Shown: one piece after another, positions 31,171-53,482 of the stretch
Layout of the letters: the number at the start of each line of letters is the position of its first letter
Position numbering within the stretch: the first letter of the stretch is position 1
From: Verrucomicrobiota bacterium
GTDB taxonomy: Bacteria; Verrucomicrobiota; Verrucomicrobiia; Limisphaerales; Fontisphaeraceae
Reading direction: 5' to 3'
NCBI GenBank assembly: GCA_037139415.1
Contig: JBAXGN010000023.1
Location: 1-53,482 of the forward strand
DNA: 53,482 bases
Program-made: the position numbers and the translations under genes
Notes under the pieces: model-generated
The model's input: only the letters and a program-made list of their open reading frames with translations
What the model was told of the DNA's origin: nothing
Databases searched by the model: none

Positions 31171-31180
31171 AATTTTAGTA

Positions 31181-31341
31181 ATCAGTAATCAGTAATCAGT
31201 AATCAGTAATCAGTAATCAGTTATCAGTTATCAGTTATCAGTTATCAGTTATCAGTTATCAGTTATCAGTGACCAGTGATCAGTGACCAGTGATCAGTGA
31301 TCAGTGATCAGTGATCAGTGATCAGTGATCAGTGATCAGTG
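31181..31341. repeat. 23-unit tandem heptamer array between the terminase genes
   Basis: Twenty-three uninterrupted 7-bp units in one phase: five ATCAGTA, then seven ATCAGTT, then eleven ending in G (nine ATCAGTG and two ACCAGTG). The units are sorted in three blocks by last base. The array lies in the 215 bp between the small and large terminase genes. Shorter stretches of the same core appear near 32188-32240, 38420, 41245-41275 and 41400. Confidence 0.92.
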
Positions 31342-31350
31342 ATCAGGGCG

Positions 31351-33243: not shown

Positions 33244-33433
33244 GACCAGCCAAAGAGCGCGACTTTTGGGCTCTCCAAGGCTTTTGTTCCATTCCTGCGC
33301 CTTGCATTATTAAGGTTCCTTCTTTACTGTTTGCCCATGGCCATTCATCACCCGGTCATGCGTTCAGGTCACATGGACTTGGTTTTCAATGGCAGAGCGG
33401 GATTTCACACGTCATAAGCGATTACCAGATGCC

Positions 33434-36400
33434 ATGACCGCAAACATTCATCGCGCCAAGCCAGCCCCCCGCGCCAAACGGTCCGCCGCCCGGACCCGCC
33501 GAAATGCTCGGTCTGTGCCACCGCCTCCTGTGAAGATCGGCTCCTGGGAATACATGTTCCGCATGCTGACGGTTTTCCAGCGAACTCACCAGCATTGCAA
33601 CGTGCCCTTTGAGGAGCGTCCGGGCAGTCTGGGCCGTTGGCTTCACGACCAAATTGCCGATGCCAAGGCCAGCCGACTGCCACTGAAGCGATGCCAGCGC
33701 CTCGCCACCTTGGGCGTCGTGTTGGACATCGCGCTCTCCCCCTCACCCCAGCATCTGCACTTGGAGGTTCTCTGGGAAAAGCGCTTCACGGAACTCCTGG
33801 CGTACCAGAAGCGGTTTGGCCACACCTGCGTTCCCTCCAAGTGGAGCGAGAACCCGGCCCTGGGCGCCTGGGTGCATTGCCAGCGTGCCTACCGTAAGAA
33901 GAACCTGCTCGCCGCCAACCGCATCGCCCAACTCAGCCAAATCGGGTTCGCGTGGTCCGCCCCTGACCGCTTAAACCCCATGCGTGAGGAAAACCGGGAT
34001 AAACTCTGGCGCCACATGTTCGACCAACTCCAGCGCTTTCGGCAAGGCCACGGCCATTGCCGGGTGCCCTCCGATTGGCCCGAGAATCCGGGGCTGGGCC
34101 AGTGGGTCCAGAGTCAGCGACTCGCAAACCGCAAAGGCCGGTTGCGACCCGACCGCAAAGCGCTCCTCGAAGGCTGTGGCTTTGCCTGGCAGGACGATAA
34201 CCATGTCAGCAACGAACGCTGGCAGCGTCAGTTCGATGCCCTCCTTGCCTTCAAGGCTCGGTTTGCCCATACCCTGGTGCCTTCCAACTGGGCCGAGAAC
34301 AATTCCTTGGGCGCTTGGGTCTATATCCAGCGGGCTTACCGCCGGAAAAATTTGCTTAGCCCCGACCGCATCGCCCGCCTCGACGCCATCGGGTTCACCT
34401 GGAGCGGTCCCGGCCGCCTCGGGCCGGCACGAACCGAGGATTACCGGCTGCGTTGGGAATTAAAATTTGAACAACTCCGCCAATTTAAGGAATCCCACGG
34501 ACACTGCCAGCCCGCCGCATCCATTTTGAAGGAGCGCTCCCTGGCTGATTGGGTTAAAACCCAGCGCGCCGCTCAGCGCGCCGGCCGACTTGATCCCGCT
34601 CACAAGGAGCGCCTCGACGCCATCGGGTTCTCCTGGAGCGTCCCCGGCCGCCTCGGGCCGGAACGAACTGAGGATTACCGGCTGCGTTGGGAATTAAAAT
34701 TTGAACAGCTCCGCCAATTTAAGGAATCCCACGGACACTGCCGGCCCGCCGCATCCATTTTGGAGGATCGCTCCCTGGCTGATTGGGTTCAAACCCAGCG
34801 CGCCGTCCAGCGGGCTGGCCGACTTGATCCCGCTCGCAAGGAGCGCCTCGACGCCCTTGGCTTCGACTGGAAACCAGCCCCGGGCGGCAGAGTTGTCGGC
34901 CTTACGCCCGCAGAACACGCCCGGTTGTCCGAATTGCACCACGCTCAGCGCGAACGGCTATGGGGGCAGCGGCTGGCCGAACTGGCCGCCTTCCGTGAAC
35001 AGCACGGACACATCTGCGTCCCCGCAGAGTCGCCGTTGGGGACCTGGCTCGCCCAACAGCGCAAAGCCGCTTCCCGAGACCAACTCGTGGCGGAGAAACG
35101 CCAGCGCCTGGCCAACCTGGGCGTGAACTGGCTGCCCCTCGAATCCACGTGGGAGCGCCACTTCCAAAACCTCTGCGATTTTCATCGTCAACACGGCCAC
35201 TTTCACGTGCCCAGCGGCTACGCTCCCGATCCCGATCTGTACGATTGGCAGTACCGCCAGCGCTATCTCCATCGTCATGGCAGCCTGCGTGAAGACCGGA
35301 AGCAGAAATTTGAGGCCCTGGGCTGGACCTCGAGTCCGGGGCCAGACTCTGATCACGAGGCGAAGTGGGAAAAGCGTTTCGCCGAACTCCTCGCCTTCAA
35401 AGAGCGCCATGGCCATTTCCGGGTCGCCACTCGTCATGGCAGAACGTCGCTGGGTATTTGGCTTGGCAACCAGCGCCAGCTAGCCGCCCAAGGCAAGCTC
35501 TCCCCCGACCGCCGCGAACGCCTCGTGGCTGCCGGCGTGCAATTCGGGCGCTTTGCCCCGGACAAGTGGCAGTCGCGTTACGAACAACTCGTCGCTTTCA
35601 TCGCCCGGCATGGTCACTGTCATGTGCCGTGCGACGACCTGGCTCTCGGCAAACTTTTCAACTGGATCTCCGTCCAGCGCACGGTTAAGCGCCTTGGTAA
35701 ACTTGGCCCCGAGCGCCTCCGGATGCTCGAAGCCATTGGCTTCGAATGGAACACCAGCGCCACGCGCATTAACCCTGGCAAGCTCGCCCACTGGGAGCGC
35801 ATGTATGCCGCCTTGGTTGAATACCAGAGACAGCACGGCCATACGCTCGTTCCTTTTGATTGCGAGGTACCTGCTCCGGTCGGGGCCGCGGCGCCTGCCA
35901 GCCCCCTGCAACTGGGCCGCTGGGTTGCGATGCAGCGCCAGGCTTTCGGACTAGGTAAAATTAAACCCGAGCGCCAGCGCCGGCTTAATGACCTGGGTTT
36001 TGTTTGGAATACCCTTGAGGCGGGATGGAAATTAAACCTCCAGGCGTTGCAAACCTTCCGCCGCGACCATGGCCACTGTCAGGTCTCCCAACGGTTGAAC
36101 CCGGAACTCGCCGTCTGGGTCTTCACCCTCCGTCAGCAGCGCAAAGACGGCAAACTTTCGGCGGAGCGGATACGCCAGCTCGACGAGCTGGGCTTTGCTT
36201 GGCAGGCCCGCAATCTGCGATGGGAACACCGCTTTGCCGAACTGCTCCACTACCAGCAAACCAATGGCCACTGCAATGTGCCGGCCCAATGGAAGCCAAA
36301 CCCCGCGCTGGCCGGCTGGGTCGATCGACAGCGACAGGGGCACGCGCGCGGCACCCTTGGCGCCGAGTTCACCCAGCGGCTCGAAGCCATTGGGTTTAGT

Positions 36401-36646
36401 TGGAAACGCTCCTTCCGTCACAACCCGGAGGCCGACGCCCGCTGGGAAAAAGAATTCCAAGCGTTGGCGAATTACCAGCGCCGCCACGGCTCCCTCCGCG
36501 TGCCCCGCCTGTCACCGAAGTATTCCGCCTTGGCCCGCTGGATCTATTGCCAGCGCCGGATCTACCGCCAGAAACTATTGCGCCCCGACCGCCAGCGCCG
36601 TCTCGAAACCATTGGCTTCTTCGCCGCCCCCGCTCCCGCCGCCTAG
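33434..36646 (+). CDS. Protein of 14 helicase-associated (HA) repeats, no helicase domain
   Basis: About 1070 residues, made almost entirely of HA domains (PF03457-like) after a basic N-terminal tail (AKPAPRAKRSAARTRRNA). Each unit of about 65-78 residues has W(x)3(F/L)xxLxxFxxxHGHCxVP, then LGxW(V/L)xxQR and RxxRLxxLGFxW. I count 14 units by eye. Units 5 and 6 (DNA 34381-34614 and 34615-34848) are almost identical. In known proteins HA repeats sit behind a DEAD/DEAH helicase core; here no Walker A or DEAD box is present. HA repeats resemble Myb-like DNA-binding folds, so it may bind DNA along its length. Start 33434 chosen over 33389 without strong evidence. Confidence 0.8.
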   Translation: MTANIHRAKPAPRAKRSAARTRRNARSVPPPPVKIGSWEYMFRMLTVFQRTHQHCNVPFEERPGSLGRWLHDQIADAKASRLPLKRCQRLATLGVVLDIALSPSPQHLHLEVLWEKRFTELLAYQKRFGHTCVPSKWSENPALGAWVHCQRAYRKKNLLAANRIAQLSQIGFAWSAPDRLNPMREENRDKLWRHMFDQLQRFRQGHGHCRVPSDWPENPGLGQWVQSQRLANRKGRLRPDRKALLEGCGFAWQDDNHVSNERWQRQFDALLAFKARFAHTLVPSNWAENNSLGAWVYIQRAYRRKNLLSPDRIARLDAIGFTWSGPGRLGPARTEDYRLRWELKFEQLRQFKESHGHCQPAASILKERSLADWVKTQRAAQRAGRLDPAHKERLDAIGFSWSVPGRLGPERTEDYRLRWELKFEQLRQFKESHGHCRPAASILEDRSLADWVQTQRAVQRAGRLDPARKERLDALGFDWKPAPGGRVVGLTPAEHARLSELHHAQRERLWGQRLAELAAFREQHGHICVPAESPLGTWLAQQRKAASRDQLVAEKRQRLANLGVNWLPLESTWERHFQNLCDFHRQHGHFHVPSGYAPDPDLYDWQYRQRYLHRHGSLREDRKQKFEALGWTSSPGPDSDHEAKWEKRFAELLAFKERHGHFRVATRHGRTSLGIWLGNQRQLAAQGKLSPDRRERLVAAGVQFGRFAPDKWQSRYEQLVAFIARHGHCHVPCDDLALGKLFNWISVQRTVKRLGKLGPERLRMLEAIGFEWNTSATRINPGKLAHWERMYAALVEYQRQHGHTLVPFDCEVPAPVGAAAPASPLQLGRWVAMQRQAFGLGKIKPERQRRLNDLGFVWNTLEAGWKLNLQALQTFRRDHGHCQVSQRLNPELAVWVFTLRQQRKDGKLSAERIRQLDELGFAWQARNLRWEHRFAELLHYQQTNGHCNVPAQWKPNPALAGWVDRQRQGHARGTLGAEFTQRLEAIGFSWKRSFRHNPEADARWEKEFQALANYQRRHGSLRVPRLSPKYSALARWIYCQRRIYRQKLLRPDRQRRLETIGFFAAPAPAA

Positions 36647-40647: not shown

Positions 40648-40687
40648 TACGGAAAATCCGATTTTGCAGAAAGATGGAAAAAGGGAC

Positions 40688-41232
40688 ATGGCAGAAAAAT
40701 TAGCTGGCAAAAATATTAGGACAGGATGGACAGGATGAACAGGATGGGGATTGCAAATTGTAAATTTCAAATTGGTGAGCCGAGACAGGCTGGAGGCGGG
40801 AGAACCAATGAGCACCGAAGGCCCGATTTTGCAGAAAAATGAAGACCGGGAATTTTAACCACGGATGACACGGATGGCACGGATAAGACCGAAGCGCGAC
40901 ATCCGAAAGAACTTTTGCAGGAAGATGGGGGAACCGGACATGGCAGAAAAATTAGCTGGCAAAAATATTAGGACAGGATGGACAGGATGAACAGGATGGG
41001 GATTGCAAATTGTAAATTTCAAATTGGGGAGCCGAGACAGGCTGGAGGCGGTAGAACCAACGAGCACCGGAGGCCCGATTTTGCAGAAAAATGAAGACCG
41101 GGAAATTTTAACCACGGATGACACGGATGGCACGGATAAGACGGAAGCGCGACATCCGAAAGAACTTTTGCAGGAAAATGGGGGAATCGGACATGGCAGA
41201 AAGATTAGCTGGCAAAAATATGGGGAACAGAG
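40688..41232. repeat. 252-bp tandem repeat, two units plus a part
   Basis: Sequence starting ACATGGCAGAAAAATTAGCT begins at 40686, 40938 and 41191, so the period is 252-253 bp. Each unit holds AGGACAGGATGGACAGGATG, an AT-rich GCAAATTGTAAATTTC palindrome, CCGATTTTGCAGAAAAATGA and TAACCACGGATGACACGGAT. The third unit stops after about 40 bp. No protein fits. Confidence 0.85.
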
Positions 41233-41285
41233 ACGGAAGACAGTAAACAGTGATCAGTTATCAGTAAACAGTGAGCCGAGAGGAT

Positions 41286-41638
41286 GGGACTGATGGGACG
41301 CAGGGGAGCTATGGGCGCGTGGTCACCGTGCTTGAACAGGATGGGGCATTGCAAATTGAAAATTGTAAATTTCAAATTGGGGAGGCAAATACGGAAGACA
41401 GTAAACAGTAATCAGTCGGGGCTTGAAAGGTAGGGTGGTTTGTGGCACGAATTGAAGCGTAGCCCGATATTGATGAACGGGAGTTCCCTGCCGCATGGGG
41501 CGGCTGGACGTAGCATCCGGGTCGGGTCGGAAAAGAGTATGAATCCTGAGATTCGTGAATTTATTGGGCGGTCGGATTATTGCCAAGGCGAAGTGCGCAC
41601 GCTGGCAGGGATGTTGCCTGCGGACGATGCGGCGCTGG
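41286..41638 (+). repeat. 350-bp repeat, copy 2 (truncated SEC-C start)
   Basis: The second copy of 38306-38655. It ends within the gene-start region, where unrelated sequence follows. Confidence 0.85.
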
Positions 41639-41655
41639 CGGCCAGACGCGTTTGA
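41539..41655 (+). pseudogene. Truncated copy of the SEC-C gene start
   Basis: [20 protein letters not shown], then [13 protein letters not shown], matches the first 33 residues of the SEC-C protein, then ends in AARRV and a stop. The remaining 660 residues are missing, so this is a relic of the duplication. Confidence 0.75.
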
Positions 41656-41986
41656 GGCCGCCAAGCGCGAGGCCGCCAACCTGCCACCCACTCTGAAAGT
41701 GCCGGTGAGTGCCGCGCGCATCGGCCCGCTGGCAATTGCGACAAACGCTGGAGAACTCTTCGTGGAGTGGGGGCTGTCCATAAAGAAGCGCTCGCCCTTT
41801 CCCCACACCATCGTGAGCGAACTCACCAACGACTGGGTCGGTTATGAACCCACAGCACAAGCCTTCGAGCACGAGGGGTACGAGACTCTAGCTGGCGTGG
41901 ATTTTGTGTCACTTCAGGGAATCCAAATGCTGGTGGATACGTCGGTTGAGCTGCTGCAGCAACTGGCGGCCGAGGATCGCCAATGA
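41642..41986 (+). pseudogene. C-terminal fragment of a ceramidase-like protein
   Basis: About 114 residues in a frame different from the SEC-C relic: DAFEAAKREAANLP, then IGPLAIATNAGELFVEWGLS, then IKKRSPFPHTIVSELTNDWV and GYEPTAQAFEHEGYE. This is the C-terminal region of neutral/alkaline ceramidase-like proteins (GELFVE-GL-IK-SPF pattern), where the upstream catalytic domain should be but is replaced by the SEC-C relic at 41638-41645. A frame starting at 41555 could translate both as a chimera, which I think is accidental. Confidence 0.6.
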
Positions 41987-42301
41987 GCGCGACCCAATGG
42001 CAGAACCGCCCTGCGTCAAGTCGGGGGTGGCGGTAACGTCCCCCAAAAACAAATGCTTATGAGTTCAACTTAGAAAAAGCAGTTTAACCACGGATGGACA
42101 CGGATAAACACGGATTAAGAGGCCGTTACAAATGCCAAGGTGTTCGCCAAACGAGGGAACTGATCGTCGGGTTTTGAATCCGTGTTCATCGGTGTTTATC
42201 CGTGATTCTGTAGGGCAACTGCCGTTTTTAGGATGAATGATGAATCCGCGCAGTGGAAAAACCTCGCTTGCATAGCAAACTGAAAGGAGTAAATTGCCGC
42301 C
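41987..42301. repeat. Repeat-bearing gap before the antitoxin gene
   Basis: Contains a divergent element copy (42004-42064; GCGTCAAGTCGGGGGTGG, ending AAAAACAAATGCTTATGAGT). An imperfect inverted pair of ACCACGGAT-type repeats follows (ACCACGGATGGACACGGATA near 42087 and CCGTGTTCATCGGTGTTTAT near 42181). No gene is visible. Confidence 0.6.
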
Positions 42302-42526
42302 ATGAGCAGGACGGAAATTCTCGAAGAACTGCGCCGGATGCCTGAACCGGAGCGACGCGAACTCGTTGAAACCAGCGAAATGGAATTTGGTGATTTCGAC
42401 GACACGCTCGCGCCGGAGCAAATCGCCGAACTTGACCGTCGTGCAGAAGACGCTTTGAAAAACCCCGGACGCGGCATCCCGTGGGAACAACTGCGGGACG
42501 AAACTCTGGCCAAATACAAGAAATGA
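42302..42526 (+). CDS. Addiction-module antitoxin (PF09720-like)
   Basis: A 74-residue acidic/helical protein: [20 protein letters not shown] opening and a C-terminal [17 protein letters not shown], matching the putative addiction module component family that pairs with RelE/ParE toxins. A GGAG lies about 15 bp upstream. The downstream toxin frame overlaps as ATGA but is only a remnant, so this antitoxin is orphaned. Confidence 0.75.
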
Positions 42527-42586
42527 GTTTTCGGGTCATCCATGATTCCGAAGCCGTGTTTGATTGAGGAGGCGGTGGCTTGGTAT
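42523..42586 (+). pseudogene. Remnant of a ParE/RelE-type toxin
   Basis: The frame [14 protein letters not shown] starts at 42523, overlapping the antitoxin stop. In the +1 frame IEEAVAWY continues the typical ParE start (xxVxxxxEAExExEEAVAWY). A stop in the first frame and the frame change show decay. Similarity ends at about 42586, exactly where the 3' end of the oppositely oriented REC-PAS gene begins. Confidence 0.6.
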
Positions 42587-47081: not shown

Positions 47082-50000
47082 ATGAACATGCGGAACCCCA
47101 TACAAATGGCAGCGCGACAGTTGCGGGATTGGATGGCGCAGCAGGCGCGTCCGCATCCCGTCGCGAGCGACCCGCCATTGCGGGCGGAGTTGTTCAGCCT
47201 CGAACAACTGGGACGTCATGCCCAGGCGCTGGCGGCGCAGCATCAGGTCGTCCTGCGGCGCGGCTCCCATACCCTGCTGGCCCGGCTGGACCAAAACGAG
47301 CAGATCCTTAAAAACTACAACCGCTCGACCTACGCCGCCGATCAAACCCGGCGCGTCACCCACGCCGCCGAGTGGCTGCTGGATAACTTCTACCTGATCG
47401 AAGAGCAGATTCAAATGGCCCGGCGGCATCTCCCCCTGGGCTATAGCCGGGAGCTGTCCCGCCTCCTGACCGGCCCTTCCGCCGGCCTTCCCCGCGTGTA
47501 TGACTTGGTGCTCGAGTTAATTTCGCACGTGGACGCGCAGATTGACGCCGAATCGTTGCGCGCCTTCGTCGCGGCTTACCAAACGGTGTCCGCCTTGAAA
47601 ATGGGCGAGCTGTGGGCGGTGCCGATTATGCTGCGGCTGGCGCTGATTGAGAATCTGCGCCGGGTCACCGCCCGCCTGGTGGTCGCCCGGCATGATCGCG
47701 ACCTCGCGGACTTGTGGGTGAACCGCTTGCAGGACATGGCGGAGAAGCATCCGTCGCACCTCGTCGTCGTGGTGGCGGATATGGCGAAGGCGGAACTGTC
47801 CCTGTCCAGCGCATTCGTCGCGGAGTTCTGCCAGCGCTTATCCCGCCAAAACCCGGTGGTCCACCTGGCGCGGAGCTGGCTCGAACAGCGGCTCACGGAG
47901 CAAGGGCTGTCCATCGAGGCGCTCGTGCATCAGGAGAGCCAGAACCAGGCGGCCGACCAAGTGTCCATCAGCCACACCATTATCAGCCTGCGCTTCCTCG
48001 GCGCCCTGGATTGGCGGGATTTTGTGGAGGAGCTGAGCGTGGTGGAGCAGACGTTGCGCACGGATCCGGCGCGGGTTTATGGCACGATGGATTTTGCCAC
48101 ACGCGATCGCTACCGTCATGCAGTGGAGGCCCTCGCCCGGCATAGCCATATATCCGAGACCGACGTCGCGCGTCGTGCCATCGGATTCGCCGAGGACGCC
48201 GCGCGGGAGCACGGGCGCGCGGCGCGCACCGCCCACGTGGGCTACTACCTGATTGACAAAGGGCAGGCACCCTTGGAGCGCGCCATCGTCGTGCGCTGGC
48301 CGTGGCGGACTGGCCTTGAACGTGGGGTGCGCCGGTTCCCGATGGTCGTCTATGCCGGCGGCATCAGCCTGCTGACCGCGCTCGGGACGTTCGGGTTGGT
48401 GCAGCAGGCCCTGGCTCTGGAGGTCGCGGGCTGGCGGCTCATTTTCTTCATCCCCATCTTCCTGCTGTGCGCCAGCCAACTGGCAGTCGCGCTGCTCAAT
48501 TGGCTATCCACGCTGCTCGTGCTGCCCCACCTGCTCCCCCGCCTGGATTACTCCGCCGGCATCGCGCCCGAATGCCGCACCATGGTGGCCGTGCCCACCC
48601 TGCTGACCAGTGCCAGCGGCATTGCCCAGCTCATTGAAACCATCGAGATTCATTACCTGGCGAACCGGGATTCAAACCTGTTCTTCGCGCTGCTGACGGA
48701 TTTCCGCGATGCGCCGGCGGAGAGCATGCCGGAAGACGGGGCGCTGCTGCAGCGGGTGCAGGCCGGCATCGAACTGCTGAACCAAAAATACCAATCCGAC
48801 CGACCCGGCATCTTCTTTCTGTTCCACCGGCCGCGCCGCTGGAACGCGGTGGAAAACCTTTGGATGGGTTATGAACGCAAGCGGGGCAAGCTGACGGAGT
48901 TCAATGCGGTGCTGCGTGGCGGAGCGCGAGACTGCTTTTCGGTGATCATTGGTGATCCGGCACTCTTTCCGGGCATTAAATTTGTCATCACGCTGGACAC
49001 GGATACCCAACTGCCGCGCGAGGCCGCCCGTCAGTTGGTGGGGACGATTGCCCATCCGCTGAACCGGCCCCAGTTCGATGCGGTGCGCGGGATTGTCACC
49101 GAGGGCTACAGCATTTTGCAGCCGCGCGTGGGCGTGAGCCTGCCCAGCGCCGGTCGCTCCTGGTTTGTGAAACTGTTTGCGGGCGACGTCGGCATTGACC
49201 CCTACACGCGGGCGGTTTCGGACGTCTATCAGGATCTGTTCCAGGAAGGCTCCTTCATCGGGAAAGGAATTTACGATGTGGACGCGTTCCAGCAAGCCTT
49301 GCGGGGCCGCTTTCCGGAAAACGCGGTGCTGAGTCACGATTTGATCGAAGCGTGCCATGCCCGCTCGGCGCTCGTCAGCGATGTGGAGTTTTACGAGGAA
49401 TATCCCGCGCGCTACAACACCGACATCAACCGGCGGCACCGTTGGATTCGCGGCGACTGGCAGATTGCCCAGTGGCTGTTGCCCCGGGTTCCGGGGCCGG
49501 ATGCCCGGCGCATCGCCAACCCGCTCTCCGGCCTGTCGCAATGGAAGATTTTCGACAACCTGCGGCGCAGCCTGATCCCGGCGGCGCTGATGCTTTTATT
49601 GCTCGGCAACTGGATGTTGCTGCCGGAACTGGGCGGCATCGGGCCGCTGCTGGTGCTGGTGATCGTTGGGCTGCCCGGCGTGTTATCGTCGGTCATCGAA
49701 GTGTTTCGCAAGCCGGAGGAACTGCCGCTGCGGCTGCATCTGCGGGGCATGGTCGGATCGTGCGGCCGCCAGCTCGGTCAGGCATTGCTCACCTTCGCGT
49801 TTTTACCGTACGACGCGTTTATCAGCCTGGATGCCATCGGGCGGACGCTGCTGCGGTTGTTCATCACCCGCAAACGCCTCCTGGAATGGCAAACGGCCGG
49901 CGATTCTGAACGCGCGGCCGGCGCGGATCTGAAGGCGTTTTGTGTGACCATGTGGATCGCACCGGCCGTCGCGCTGGCGAGCGGGTGTTTCCTGGCCGTA

Positions 50001-51761
50001 ATGCAGCCCGGCCAGTTGCTGCTGGCGGCGCCCATCCTGGTTCTTTGGCTGAGCGCGCCGTGGATCGCCTGGCGGATCAGCCAGCCGATCACCCCGCTGG
50101 TGCCTGTGCTGAAGGCCGAACAATGGGCGTTCCTCGGCCAGACCGCGCGCAAGACCTGGCGTTTTTTTGAAACCTTTGTCTCCGCCCGGGAAAACTGGCT
50201 GCCGCCGGACAACTATCAGGAAGAGCCGGGGCCGGTCATTGCCACGCGCACTTCGCCCACGAACATGGGGCTGGCGTTGCTGGCCAACCTGGCGGCCTGC
50301 GACTTCGGCTATCTGCCGGTCAGCCAACTGCTGTTGCGCACCCGGAACACCTTCGCCTCCATGCAGCGCCTGGAGCGGTACCGAGGCCATTTCTATAACT
50401 GGTATGAGACGCGCCAACTCAAGCCGCTGCTCCCGCTCTACATCTCCAGTGTGGACAGCGGCAATCTCGCGGGGCATCTGCTGACCCTCGGCGCCGGCTT
50501 GGGAGAACTCCCTGGCCAGCCCATTCTCCCGTCCCGGCTTTTTCCCGGCCTGCGCGACACCGTGTCCATTCTGCGCGAACTGGATGGCAAAAATCCCGCG
50601 CTGAAAAGTCTGGACGCCGAGTTGGCGGACGCGCCGGCCACGCTCAGCGCCGGGTTTGCGTTGCTGCGCCGGGTGTCGGACCAGGCTACCCGGATGGCCG
50701 CCGCCCTGAGCCCCGAAGCGGGAGACGAATTGCAATGGTGGGCCCAGGCCCTGGCGCGGGATTGCCGGGAGCATTTGGAGGATTTGACCTTCCTGGCGCC
50801 GTGGCTGGCTTCGCATTGCGGAATGCGGAATGCGGAATGCGGAACTAACAGGCAACACCTCACGCCGCCGCCTGGCAGTCTCGAGGAAAAGCTCGCCGGG
50901 CTCAACCAGCACCCCACGTTGCGCGAGGTGGCGGAGTTGGACCGCACATTGAGTCCCTTGATCGAAGCGGCGCTGCAAGAGAGCGCCGGGGGCGTTTCCC
51001 CCTCTCCCGATGAGGCGAGCGCCCGGCTCGCGGAATGGTTGCGCTGTTTGCGCGAAGGCGGCGACCATGCCCGCCAGCGCCTGCTCGCGTTAACGGCCTT
51101 GGTCAAGCAATGCGGTGAGTTGGCGGCGATGGATTTCACCTTTTTGTTCGATCCGGTGCGGGATTTGTTTGCCATCGGATACAACGTCACCGAACGCCGA
51201 CTCGACCCGGGTTTTTATGATCTGTTGGCTTCCGAGGCGCGGCTGTGCAGTTACGTCGCCATCGCCCAGGGACAGGTGGCGCAAAAGCACTGGTTCTCGC
51301 TGGGCCGGCTGTTGGTCGCGGCACGGGGCGAGCCGGTGCTGGTCTCCTGGGGCGGGTCGCTGTTTGAATACCTGATGCCGCTGCTGGTCATGCCCAACTA
51401 CGAAAACACGTTGCTCGATCAATCGTATCAGGGGGCCGTGGCGCAACAAATCGCGTATGGTCGGCTGCACGGTGTGCCGTGGGGTGTTTCCGAATCCGGC
51501 TACAATCGGACAGACGTGGAACTGAACTATCAATATCGCGCTTTTGGAGTGCCGGGACTGGGTTTGAAGCGCGGCTTGGGGGAGGATCTGGTCATCGCGC
51601 CGTATGCTTCCCTGATGGCGCTGATGGTTGCGCCCCGGGAAGCGTGCGAAAACCTGGAACGCCTGGCCGCCGAGGGGCGCGCGGGCGCGTATGGTTTTTA
51701 CGAGGCGGTGGATTACACCCCGGCGCGTCTGCCGCCCGGCCAGACCAGTGTCACCATCTGA
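47082..51761 (+). CDS. ndvB: Cyclic beta-glucan synthase (NdvB family), up to an in-frame TGA
   Basis: A 1559-residue N-terminal part. It starts with an alpha-helical region (1-400), two or more membrane helices near 440-500, then a GT84 glycosyltransferase domain (FVITLDTDTQLPREAARQL, with DTD, near 640; RYNTDINRRHRWIRGDWQ near 785) flanked by more membrane helices (850-1010). A glucoamylase-like domain begins near 1080 (RGHFYNWYETRQLKPLLP). This enzyme makes cyclic beta-1,2-glucans in the inner membrane for osmotic balance. Reading stops at TGA 51759, within the conserved SFMAHHQGM segment, and the same frame stays open afterwards (see next entry). GGTGGAG upstream supports the start at 47082. 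A short GCGGAATGCGGAAT repeat is inserted in frame near residue 1250. Confidence 0.85.
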   Translation: MNMRNPIQMAARQLRDWMAQQARPHPVASDPPLRAELFSLEQLGRHAQALAAQHQVVLRRGSHTLLARLDQNEQILKNYNRSTYAADQTRRVTHAAEWLLDNFYLIEEQIQMARRHLPLGYSRELSRLLTGPSAGLPRVYDLVLELISHVDAQIDAESLRAFVAAYQTVSALKMGELWAVPIMLRLALIENLRRVTARLVVARHDRDLADLWVNRLQDMAEKHPSHLVVVVADMAKAELSLSSAFVAEFCQRLSRQNPVVHLARSWLEQRLTEQGLSIEALVHQESQNQAADQVSISHTIISLRFLGALDWRDFVEELSVVEQTLRTDPARVYGTMDFATRDRYRHAVEALARHSHISETDVARRAIGFAEDAAREHGRAARTAHVGYYLIDKGQAPLERAIVVRWPWRTGLERGVRRFPMVVYAGGISLLTALGTFGLVQQALALEVAGWRLIFFIPIFLLCASQLAVALLNWLSTLLVLPHLLPRLDYSAGIAPECRTMVAVPTLLTSASGIAQLIETIEIHYLANRDSNLFFALLTDFRDAPAESMPEDGALLQRVQAGIELLNQKYQSDRPGIFFLFHRPRRWNAVENLWMGYERKRGKLTEFNAVLRGGARDCFSVIIGDPALFPGIKFVITLDTDTQLPREAARQLVGTIAHPLNRPQFDAVRGIVTEGYSILQPRVGVSLPSAGRSWFVKLFAGDVGIDPYTRAVSDVYQDLFQEGSFIGKGIYDVDAFQQALRGRFPENAVLSHDLIEACHARSALVSDVEFYEEYPARYNTDINRRHRWIRGDWQIAQWLLPRVPGPDARRIANPLSGLSQWKIFDNLRRSLIPAALMLLLLGNWMLLPELGGIGPLLVLVIVGLPGVLSSVIEVFRKPEELPLRLHLRGMVGSCGRQLGQALLTFAFLPYDAFISLDAIGRTLLRLFITRKRLLEWQTAGDSERAAGADLKAFCVTMWIAPAVALASGCFLAVMQPGQLLLAAPILVLWLSAPWIAWRISQPITPLVPVLKAEQWAFLGQTARKTWRFFETFVSARENWLPPDNYQEEPGPVIATRTSPTNMGLALLANLAACDFGYLPVSQLLLRTRNTFASMQRLERYRGHFYNWYETRQLKPLLPLYISSVDSGNLAGHLLTLGAGLGELPGQPILPSRLFPGLRDTVSILRELDGKNPALKSLDAELADAPATLSAGFALLRRVSDQATRMAAALSPEAGDELQWWAQALARDCREHLEDLTFLAPWLASHCGMRNAECGTNRQHLTPPPGSLEEKLAGLNQHPTLREVAELDRTLSPLIEAALQESAGGVSPSPDEASARLAEWLRCLREGGDHARQRLLALTALVKQCGELAAMDFTFLFDPVRDLFAIGYNVTERRLDPGFYDLLASEARLCSYVAIAQGQVAQKHWFSLGRLLVAARGEPVLVSWGGSLFEYLMPLLVMPNYENTLLDQSYQGAVAQQIAYGRLHGVPWGVSESGYNRTDVELNYQYRAFGVPGLGLKRGLGEDLVIAPYASLMALMVAPREACENLERLAAEGRAGAYGFYEAVDYTPARLPPGQTSVTI

Positions 51762-53482
51762 TCGTTCATGGCGCATCACCAGGGGATGGGGCTGCTGGCG
51801 CTGGCGGATGTGTTGCTCAATCATCCCCTGCAACGATGTTTCCTGGCGTGTCCATTTTTCAAAGCGGCCGAATTATTATTGCAGGAACGCGTGCCGCATA
51901 CCGCTGCCCAGGTGCTTTCCGAAGCGGTGGGCTTGGGGGGATCGCGGAAGCTGGCTGGCGAAGGCGAAAGCAGCATGCGCATCTTTACCAATCCCGTCTT
52001 GCACGCACCCGAGGTGCATCTGCTGTCCAACGGCCGGTATCATGCGGTGGTCAGCAACGCGGGGGGCGGCTACAGCCGCTGGCGCGACCTGGCGGTGACC
52101 CGCTGGCACGAGGATGCCACGCGCGATTGCTGGGGGACGTTCATCTATTTGCGCGACGTGGATACGGGGGAATTTTGGTCGGCGGCGTATCAGCCCACCT
52201 TGCGCGCCATGAAGGGCAGCGAAGCGATCTTCACCCAGGCGCGTGCCGAATTCCGTCATCACCATGCCGGCCTGGAAATCCACACTGAAATCAGCGTTTC
52301 GCCGGAGGACGATGTGGAATTGCGGCGCGTGACGATTACGAATCACTCCCACGCAAAACGGAGCATCGAGCTGACCAGTTACGCCGAGGTGGTCCTGGCG
52401 CTCCCGGCGGCGGACGCGGCCCATCCCGCCTTCAGCAATTTGTTCGTGCAAACGGAATTCGTGCGGCCACATGCCGCCCTGCTGTGTACCCGCCGCCCCC
52501 GCTCGGAAGGCGAGCGGCCGCCGTGGCTCCTCAACTTGATGGTGGGGCAAGGCGGTGAACAGGGAACCCTTTCGTGGGAAACGGACCGCGCCCGCTTTAT
52601 CGGCCGCGGCCGGACTCTGGTCCGTCCGGCGGCCATGCTGGAGGCGGCACCGCTTTCCAACACTGCCGGCTCCGTTCTGGATCCCATTGTCGCGTTGCGC
52701 CGCACAGTCACGCTGGCACCCCATGAAACGGCCCGCGTGGATTTCGTCCTGGGCGTGGCGGAAACCCGGGAAGCGGCGCTGGTACTGGTCGAAAAATATC
52801 ACAACCCCCGCATGGCTGATCGCGCCTTGGACCTTGCCTGGACGCACAGCCAGGTCACCTTGCGGCACCTCAATGCCTCGGAGGCCGAGGCCCAGCTTTA
52901 TGCGCGATTGGCCGGCACGTTGATCTATGCCAACCCCGCCCGGCGCGCCACGCCCGGCGTGTTGCTCGGCAACCGGCGCGGCCAAAGCGGACTGTGGAGT
53001 TATGGCATCTCCGGCGACGCGCCGATTGTCCTGCTGCGGATCAGCGACCCGGCCAAAATCGAGATCGTGCAACAGCTCATCCAGGCGCACTCCTACTGGC
53101 GCATGAAAGGCCTGGCGGTGGAACTGGTTATTTTGAACGAAGACGTTTCGGTGTATCGCCAGCCCTTGCACGACCAGATCATCAGCCTGATCGCCTCGGG
53201 GATTGAAGCGCAGATGATGGACAAGCCGGGCGGGATCTTTGTCCGGCGCCTGGAGCAGGTTTCCAGTGCGGACCGCATCCTCCTGCAATCGGTGGCGCGG
53301 CTGATTTTGGTGGACGAACAGGGCACGTTGGCCGAACAATTGGAACGCCCCGGCAGCGCCGAACTGCTGATCCCGGAGTTGACGCCCACCCGGTCCACGT
53401 TCCGTGATTCCCATCAATTTGCGCCGCTGCCGCCGCGGGCGTTGCTTTTCCATAACGGCCTGGGGGGCTTCACGCCCGATGG
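51762..53482 (+). CDS. ndvB: Cyclic beta-glucan synthase, continuation after the TGA (partial at window end)
   Basis: Directly in frame with the preceding entry: the codons after the TGA read SFMAHHQGMGLLALADVLL, as expected for this family. The frame stays open to the window end (573 codons). This half covers the last part of the glucoamylase-like domain and the GH94-like phosphorylase domain (VHLLSNGRYHAVVSNAGGGY, ELRRVTITNHSHAKRSIELT, AETREAALVLVEKYHNP). The first ATG in frame is 51768, but the family would need the codons before it. The end of the gene is outside the window. Confidence 0.8.

Follow-up and report, generated by a model that had tools for sequence, protein, structure and literature searches.

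A single in-frame TGA in a predicted cyclic-glucan synthase gene of a Verrucomicrobiota bacterium is probably a recent nonsense allele

Introduction

What does a single in-frame TGA mean in a very large gene whose reading frame continues undisturbed beyond it? The question is raised by a locus on contig C23 of a Verrucomicrobiota bacterium; this whole contig, 53,482 bases long, is the window analysed here, and the genome comprises 7.9 Mb in 378 contigs (98.11% complete). An earlier note on the window had placed the TGA in a glucan synthase gene and proposed a nonsense mutation, a sequencing error or genuine readthrough, favouring error, recent loss or recoding over an old pseudogene.

Results

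The frame beginning at 47082 contains 1559 codons and ends with a TGA as codon 1560, as the earlier note had read it (Table 1). The base after the TGA is T, giving a UGA-U context. Directly after the stop, the same frame reads SFMAHHQGM and continues for 573 open codons to the contig end, again in agreement with the earlier reading. When the stop is read through, a PF10091 match covers 51219-51851 with one TGA inside, and the downstream part matches the GH94_b-supersand domain, indicating that the frame after the stop is not open by chance.

The missing C-terminus was located on contig C15, which opens with a 764-codon frame encoding the remainder of the second GH94 supersandwich domain, a complete GH94 catalytic domain and a GH65C-like end. 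No overlap was detected between the end of C23 and the start of C15, and the gap, measured on the two nearest full-length relatives, was ~22 residues (~66 bases). This spacing gives a full protein of ~2,919 residues with its only stop at codon 1560. No second stop or frame break was found over 2,896 of the ~2,919 codons, so the additional frame damage that had been named as a sign of ordinary decay did not appear there. The assembly itself breaks within the same gene, ~1.7 kb downstream of the stop.

Judged by its domains and homologues, the interrupted gene is a very large cyclic-glucan synthase, the enzyme for a ring-shaped sugar polymer. Its parts match PF10091 and GH94 families, the structures 8rf9/8rf0 (E 1.6e-174) and the cyclisation domain 8wy1. 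The GH94 families are PF06165 in the window and both PF06165 and PF17167 (1-420 of 420) on C15. In the glycosyltransferase region, PF13632 scored 20 bits, under the cut-off of 27, and full-length homologues align across this region.

Among known systems, the closest is Agrobacterium tumefaciens Cgs (PDB 8rf0, 8rf9), which is homologous over the 867-residue part tested, has the same order of a GH189-type cyclase followed by GH94 domains and is of similar size (2,799/2,818 residues deposited versus ~2,919 here). It differs in having a Tyr aligned to the residue where the TGA stands here. TiCGSCy, the cyclisation domain of Thermoanaerobacter italicus CGS (PDB 8wy1) and founder of GH189, aligns gaplessly across the stop in the part tested, and equivalents of its E1356, E1400, E1442, H1536 and H1537 are all in the window. 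The relevant passage of PMC10834661 describes E1356 as the acid/base, E1442 as the nucleophile and H1536/H1537 as a supporting His pair. From the positions of their equivalents (Table 1), the stop follows the catalytic glutamates and precedes the His pair, which distinguishes this gene from TiCGSCy; the GH189 domain is encoded in the DNA, but its His pair is located 3' of the stop. An order-wide search with the 867-residue query revealed no complementing paralogue, as the own genome returned only the C23 gene and its C15 continuation. The one other PF10091 match in this genome is on C127, in a 579-codon frame.

Table 1. Positions of features of the interrupted gene and of loci of the selenocysteine trait
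Feature	Position	Strand	Evidence or remark
Upstream part	47082..51758	+	Alternative start TTG 47013, where the ORF listing begins this part; PF10091 profile 4-183 of 221; 78-82% identity to full-length L013, L011
Four perfect copies of the 7-mer TGCGGAA, hypervariable linker of the glucan synthase gene	50817..50844	+	
Glu equivalent to TiCGS E1356 (acid/base, predicted)	51234..51236	+	Ungapped 8wy1 alignment, residue checked
Glu equivalent to TiCGS E1442 (nucleophile, predicted)	51492..51494	+	8wy1 alignment
In-frame TGA, then T (UGA-U), codon 1560	51759..51761	+	Homologous codon is sense in all 116 relative loci
Downstream part: end of GH189 domain and first GH94 supersandwich domain; 573 codons, open to contig end	51762..53480	+	PF06165 (GH94_b-supersand) 2e-87; 85% identity to L011, L013
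His-His of MAHHQGM, equivalent to TiCGS H1536/H1537; absent from terminated product	51774..51779	+	8wy1 alignment
Codons 1583-1586 (L, Q, R, C)	51828..51839	+	M1583L and R1586C, the only departures from residues that all 51 other full-length proteins share
Selenocysteine-trait loci	G000:C62:1001-1094 (L195); G000:C152:1770-3662 (L200); G000:C29:10293-11216 (L206)		

The comparison with close relatives that the earlier note had suggested showed no TGA or other stop at the homologous codon in any of the relative loci, which comprise 93 distinct sequences, and none of the loci compared was split there. The residue at this site was R in 86 loci, Q in 9, L in 8, K in 6, P, G and F in 2 each and C in 1; counting distinct sequences, R occupied the site in 66 of 93. 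The expectation of a basic residue before SFMAHHQGM thus held (R or K in 92/116). The description of the stop as lying in a conserved motif was right for SFMAHHQGM but not for the interrupted residue itself, which on these alignments is usually Arg or basic at a position tolerant of others. Descent from an ancestral CGA did not follow from the comparison. A codon one step from TGA occurs in 18 of the 93 distinct relatives, but not in the nearest ones (L092/L011, L093/L013 and L004/L012), which have CGG or CCA there. In the own genome, CGA accounts for ~7% of Arg codons (4.35 of 63.9 per thousand).

Two of these relatives, the intact Verrucomicrobiota metagenome-bin homologues L092/L011 and L093/L013, share 81-84% protein identity with our gene in the parts compared and are open over their full length (2,989 and 2,913 codons); they differ in lacking the stop, with CGG and CCA, respectively, at the site. 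The distribution of the gene is patchy: of 320 genomes searched within the order, 61 gave a match, and the two searched from the same family gave none. In 384 genomes of the class, PF10091 gave 86 matches, two of which had an internal stop: our TGA and a TAA in G514, the latter in a partial match. With the 867-residue query in the order, two of the matches listed contained a stop, namely our gene and a distant 800-codon frame (G204:C54).

Selection on the gene was estimated by dN/dS of the own sequence against L011 and L013, respectively, and between those two relatives. The values were 0.195 and 0.192 (0.189 between the relatives) for codons 1-1380, 0.100 and 0.078 (0.077) for codons 1380-1559, 0.154 and 0.117 (0.136) for codons 1561-2133 after the stop, and 0.115 and 0.104 (0.117) for the C15 part. 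In an alignment with the 51 relatives having frames of more than 2,300 codons, from which shorter or cut loci were dropped, the own sequence departed at 2 of 480 invariant columns (range 0-15 across the 52 sequences) and ranked 25th of 52 in mean per-site surprise. These dN/dS values and the small number of departures led us to reject an old pseudogene. Of the marks of a nonsense pseudogene, a disabling lesion absent from relatives was present (0/116 loci carry it), and relaxed selection or added damage was not detected, dN/dS being as in intact relatives.

Both departures, M1583L and R1586C, fall in the 26 codons that follow the stop, an arrangement with a chance of ~0.0009 by position, calculated post hoc. 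Among the relative loci, R1586 is Arg in 116/116 and M1583 is Met in 115/116. Only two of the 52 sequences are more unusual than our own over the stretch 1561-1599. The aligned A. tumefaciens sequence, on the other hand, has Leu at both positions, and the stretch is also variable among intact relatives. The cluster fits local relaxed constraint and a poor or mixed sequence patch equally well.

We also examined how UGA is decoded in this genome. The RF2 gene prfB is present (469 bits, above cut-off). Of 143 long training segments, 52 end with TGA, 61 with TAA and 26 with TAG, and four run off the end. Internal stops were absent from all 61 PF00005 (ABC) and all 80 PF01408 (GFO-IDH-MocA) domain matches in the own genome (0/141 in total). 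In 601 kb, 22 same-frame pairs separated by a stop were found, one being the glucan synthase gene; of the other 21, 20 were scanned (L173 was left out), with Pfam matches in 12 and a domain spanning the stop in none. A changed code with TGA as a sense codon was rejected on the presence of prfB, the use of TGA as a terminator and the uninterrupted domains. Given prfB, the UGA-U context and these domains, general readthrough is likewise disfavoured. A suppressor tRNA was not found: apart from tRNA-Sec, no UCA anticodon occurs among the 43 tRNA loci detected by ARAGORN, an incomplete list that lacks Ile(GAT), Ala(TGC) and Leu(TAA).

Sec-decoding machinery is present, with a tRNA-Sec with anticodon TCA (L195; 67.6 bits, cut-off 47), SelB (314.6, cut-off 242.25) and SelD (336.1, cut-off 125) all above their cut-offs, so UGA could in principle be decoded as selenocysteine. 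The one strong Fdh-alpha-like match, on C45 (580.7 bits, below the cut-off of 666.25), has no internal stop. The stretch after the stop folds more stably than that of most relatives: in a first comparison of 98 loci, from which 18 minus-strand loci of the 116 had been dropped, 8 were as stable, and when repeated on all 116 loci, 7 of the 93 distinct sequences were. However, 172 of 200 shuffles were at least as stable (z = +1.0), 42% of 2,112 codon positions in the gene fold as well, and 27% of gene positions reach the SECIS-like stem score of the site. Thus, by a simple home-made hairpin score with no known selenoprotein as positive control, no SECIS hairpin above gene or shuffle background was detected just after the UGA. 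A search of the window with Rfam found nothing.

The window contains several repeats. The TGCGGAA copies lie within the coding frame, in a linker where relatives carry other inserts. As each copy is 7 bases long, gaining or losing one would put the codons after it out of frame, which makes a phase-variation switch conceivable from the repeat sequence. Elsewhere, a 1085-codon ORF (33389-36646, +) contains 14 stretches of the helicase-associated domain PF03457 and, inside it, a 234-base tandem repeat (34376-34855). The 7-mer AGTGATC occurs in 24 tandem copies with 96% matches at 31177-31346. A region of ~1.9 kb (40648-42535) has one ORF of more than 150 codons, repeated short phrases such as GGACAGGAT, and a strong skew (GC skew 0.20, AT skew 0.21).

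Discussion

We consider the stop to be probably a recent nonsense allele of the cyclic-glucan synthase gene. As the gene shows no decay, the stop, if real, must be recent, and the earlier preference for error or recent loss over an old pseudogene is borne out by one stop, no other damage and normal dN/dS. RF2 would terminate at UGA-U, giving a product of 1559 residues. This polypeptide is predicted to retain the glycosyltransferase together with both glutamates of the cyclase, whereas the His pair, the last part of the GH189 barrel and the entire GH94 half would be absent from it. With these parts missing, the strain would make little or no cyclic glucan; if the product is indeed terminated, cyclic glucan synthesis has presumably been lost. 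The patchy occurrence of the gene across the order suggests that such a loss may be tolerated. In A. tumefaciens Cgs, the truncations 1-1540, 1-1587 and 1-1846 were detrimental or inactive, according to the passage of PMC10901819 that deals with them, and our stop aligns with approximately residue 1456-1475 of the deposited chains, ahead of all three published truncation ends. Against this reading, selection shows no relaxation and therefore provides no positive mark of gene loss, and a consensus error, too, would leave the rest of the gene intact, as observed.

An error of consensus, sequencing or strain merging in a metagenome-style assembly, with no stop in the true gene, is possible but rather unlikely. 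Such an error would produce what is seen here, one lesion at base level in a gene of 2,919 codons under normal selection. The gene is divided between two of 378 contigs with ~22 residues missing, and the nearby contig break could point to a local problem with the assembly. The clustering of both invariant-column departures close to the stop is also what a poor or mixed patch would give, but the Leu residues of A. tumefaciens and the variability of this region among intact relatives weaken the point. In addition, neither the domain matches nor the other stop-separated pairs give the genome any sign of a high error rate. The base call at the TGA rests on the assembly consensus, and only reads separate a nonsense allele from an error.

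The readings in which the stop is real but the full enzyme is still made fared worse, and the suggestion of genuine readthrough or recoding was not upheld: the TGA is unique among the loci compared, it stands in UGA-U in a genome with prfB, and the SECIS-like fold is ordinary. Neither a stop conserved among relatives nor a leaky context, both expected of programmed readthrough, was found. Reading of the UGA by a near-cognate or suppressor tRNA, yielding some full-length enzyme, is very unlikely. UGA is the leakiest of the stops, as stated in a passage of PMC5289835, and almost any inserted residue could work because the position is tolerant; however, the following U makes a low-readthrough context according to sources cited in that paper, the incomplete list of 43 tRNA loci offers no UCA anticodon other than that of tRNA-Sec, and relatives lack the stop.

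Still less probable is a gene of two polypeptides, in which termination at the TGA is followed by re-initiation at ATG 51768 and the halves assemble. This in-frame ATG lies 6 bases past the stop and both halves are under normal constraint, but the cut would divide the GH189 domain, separating its glutamates from its His pair, no Shine-Dalgarno-like stretch was seen by eye in the 30 bases upstream, and no relative is split at the site. We hardly expect that the UGA is read as sense, by selenocysteine or a near-cognate tRNA, to give full-length synthase only under some conditions, such as selenium or RF2 level; this would be regulatory recoding of a surface-sugar enzyme, for which there is no conserved precedent. 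The idea of an unusual selenoprotein is close to negligible despite the machinery and the relatively stable fold, since most shuffles and 42% of codon positions in the gene fold as well, only 1 of the 93 distinct relatives has Cys at the site, and we know of no redox role for it. Most selenocysteine families have Cys homologues and redox roles, as noted in the part of PMC1794560 that concerns them.

If the stop is an error, the case means that metagenome-derived genes need read support before claims of pseudogenes or recoding are made. Only the recoding reading, which is unlikely, would have broad importance. If the stop is real, it records the loss of a large surface-polysaccharide enzyme at a stage before decay set in, in a lineage with a patchy distribution of the gene.
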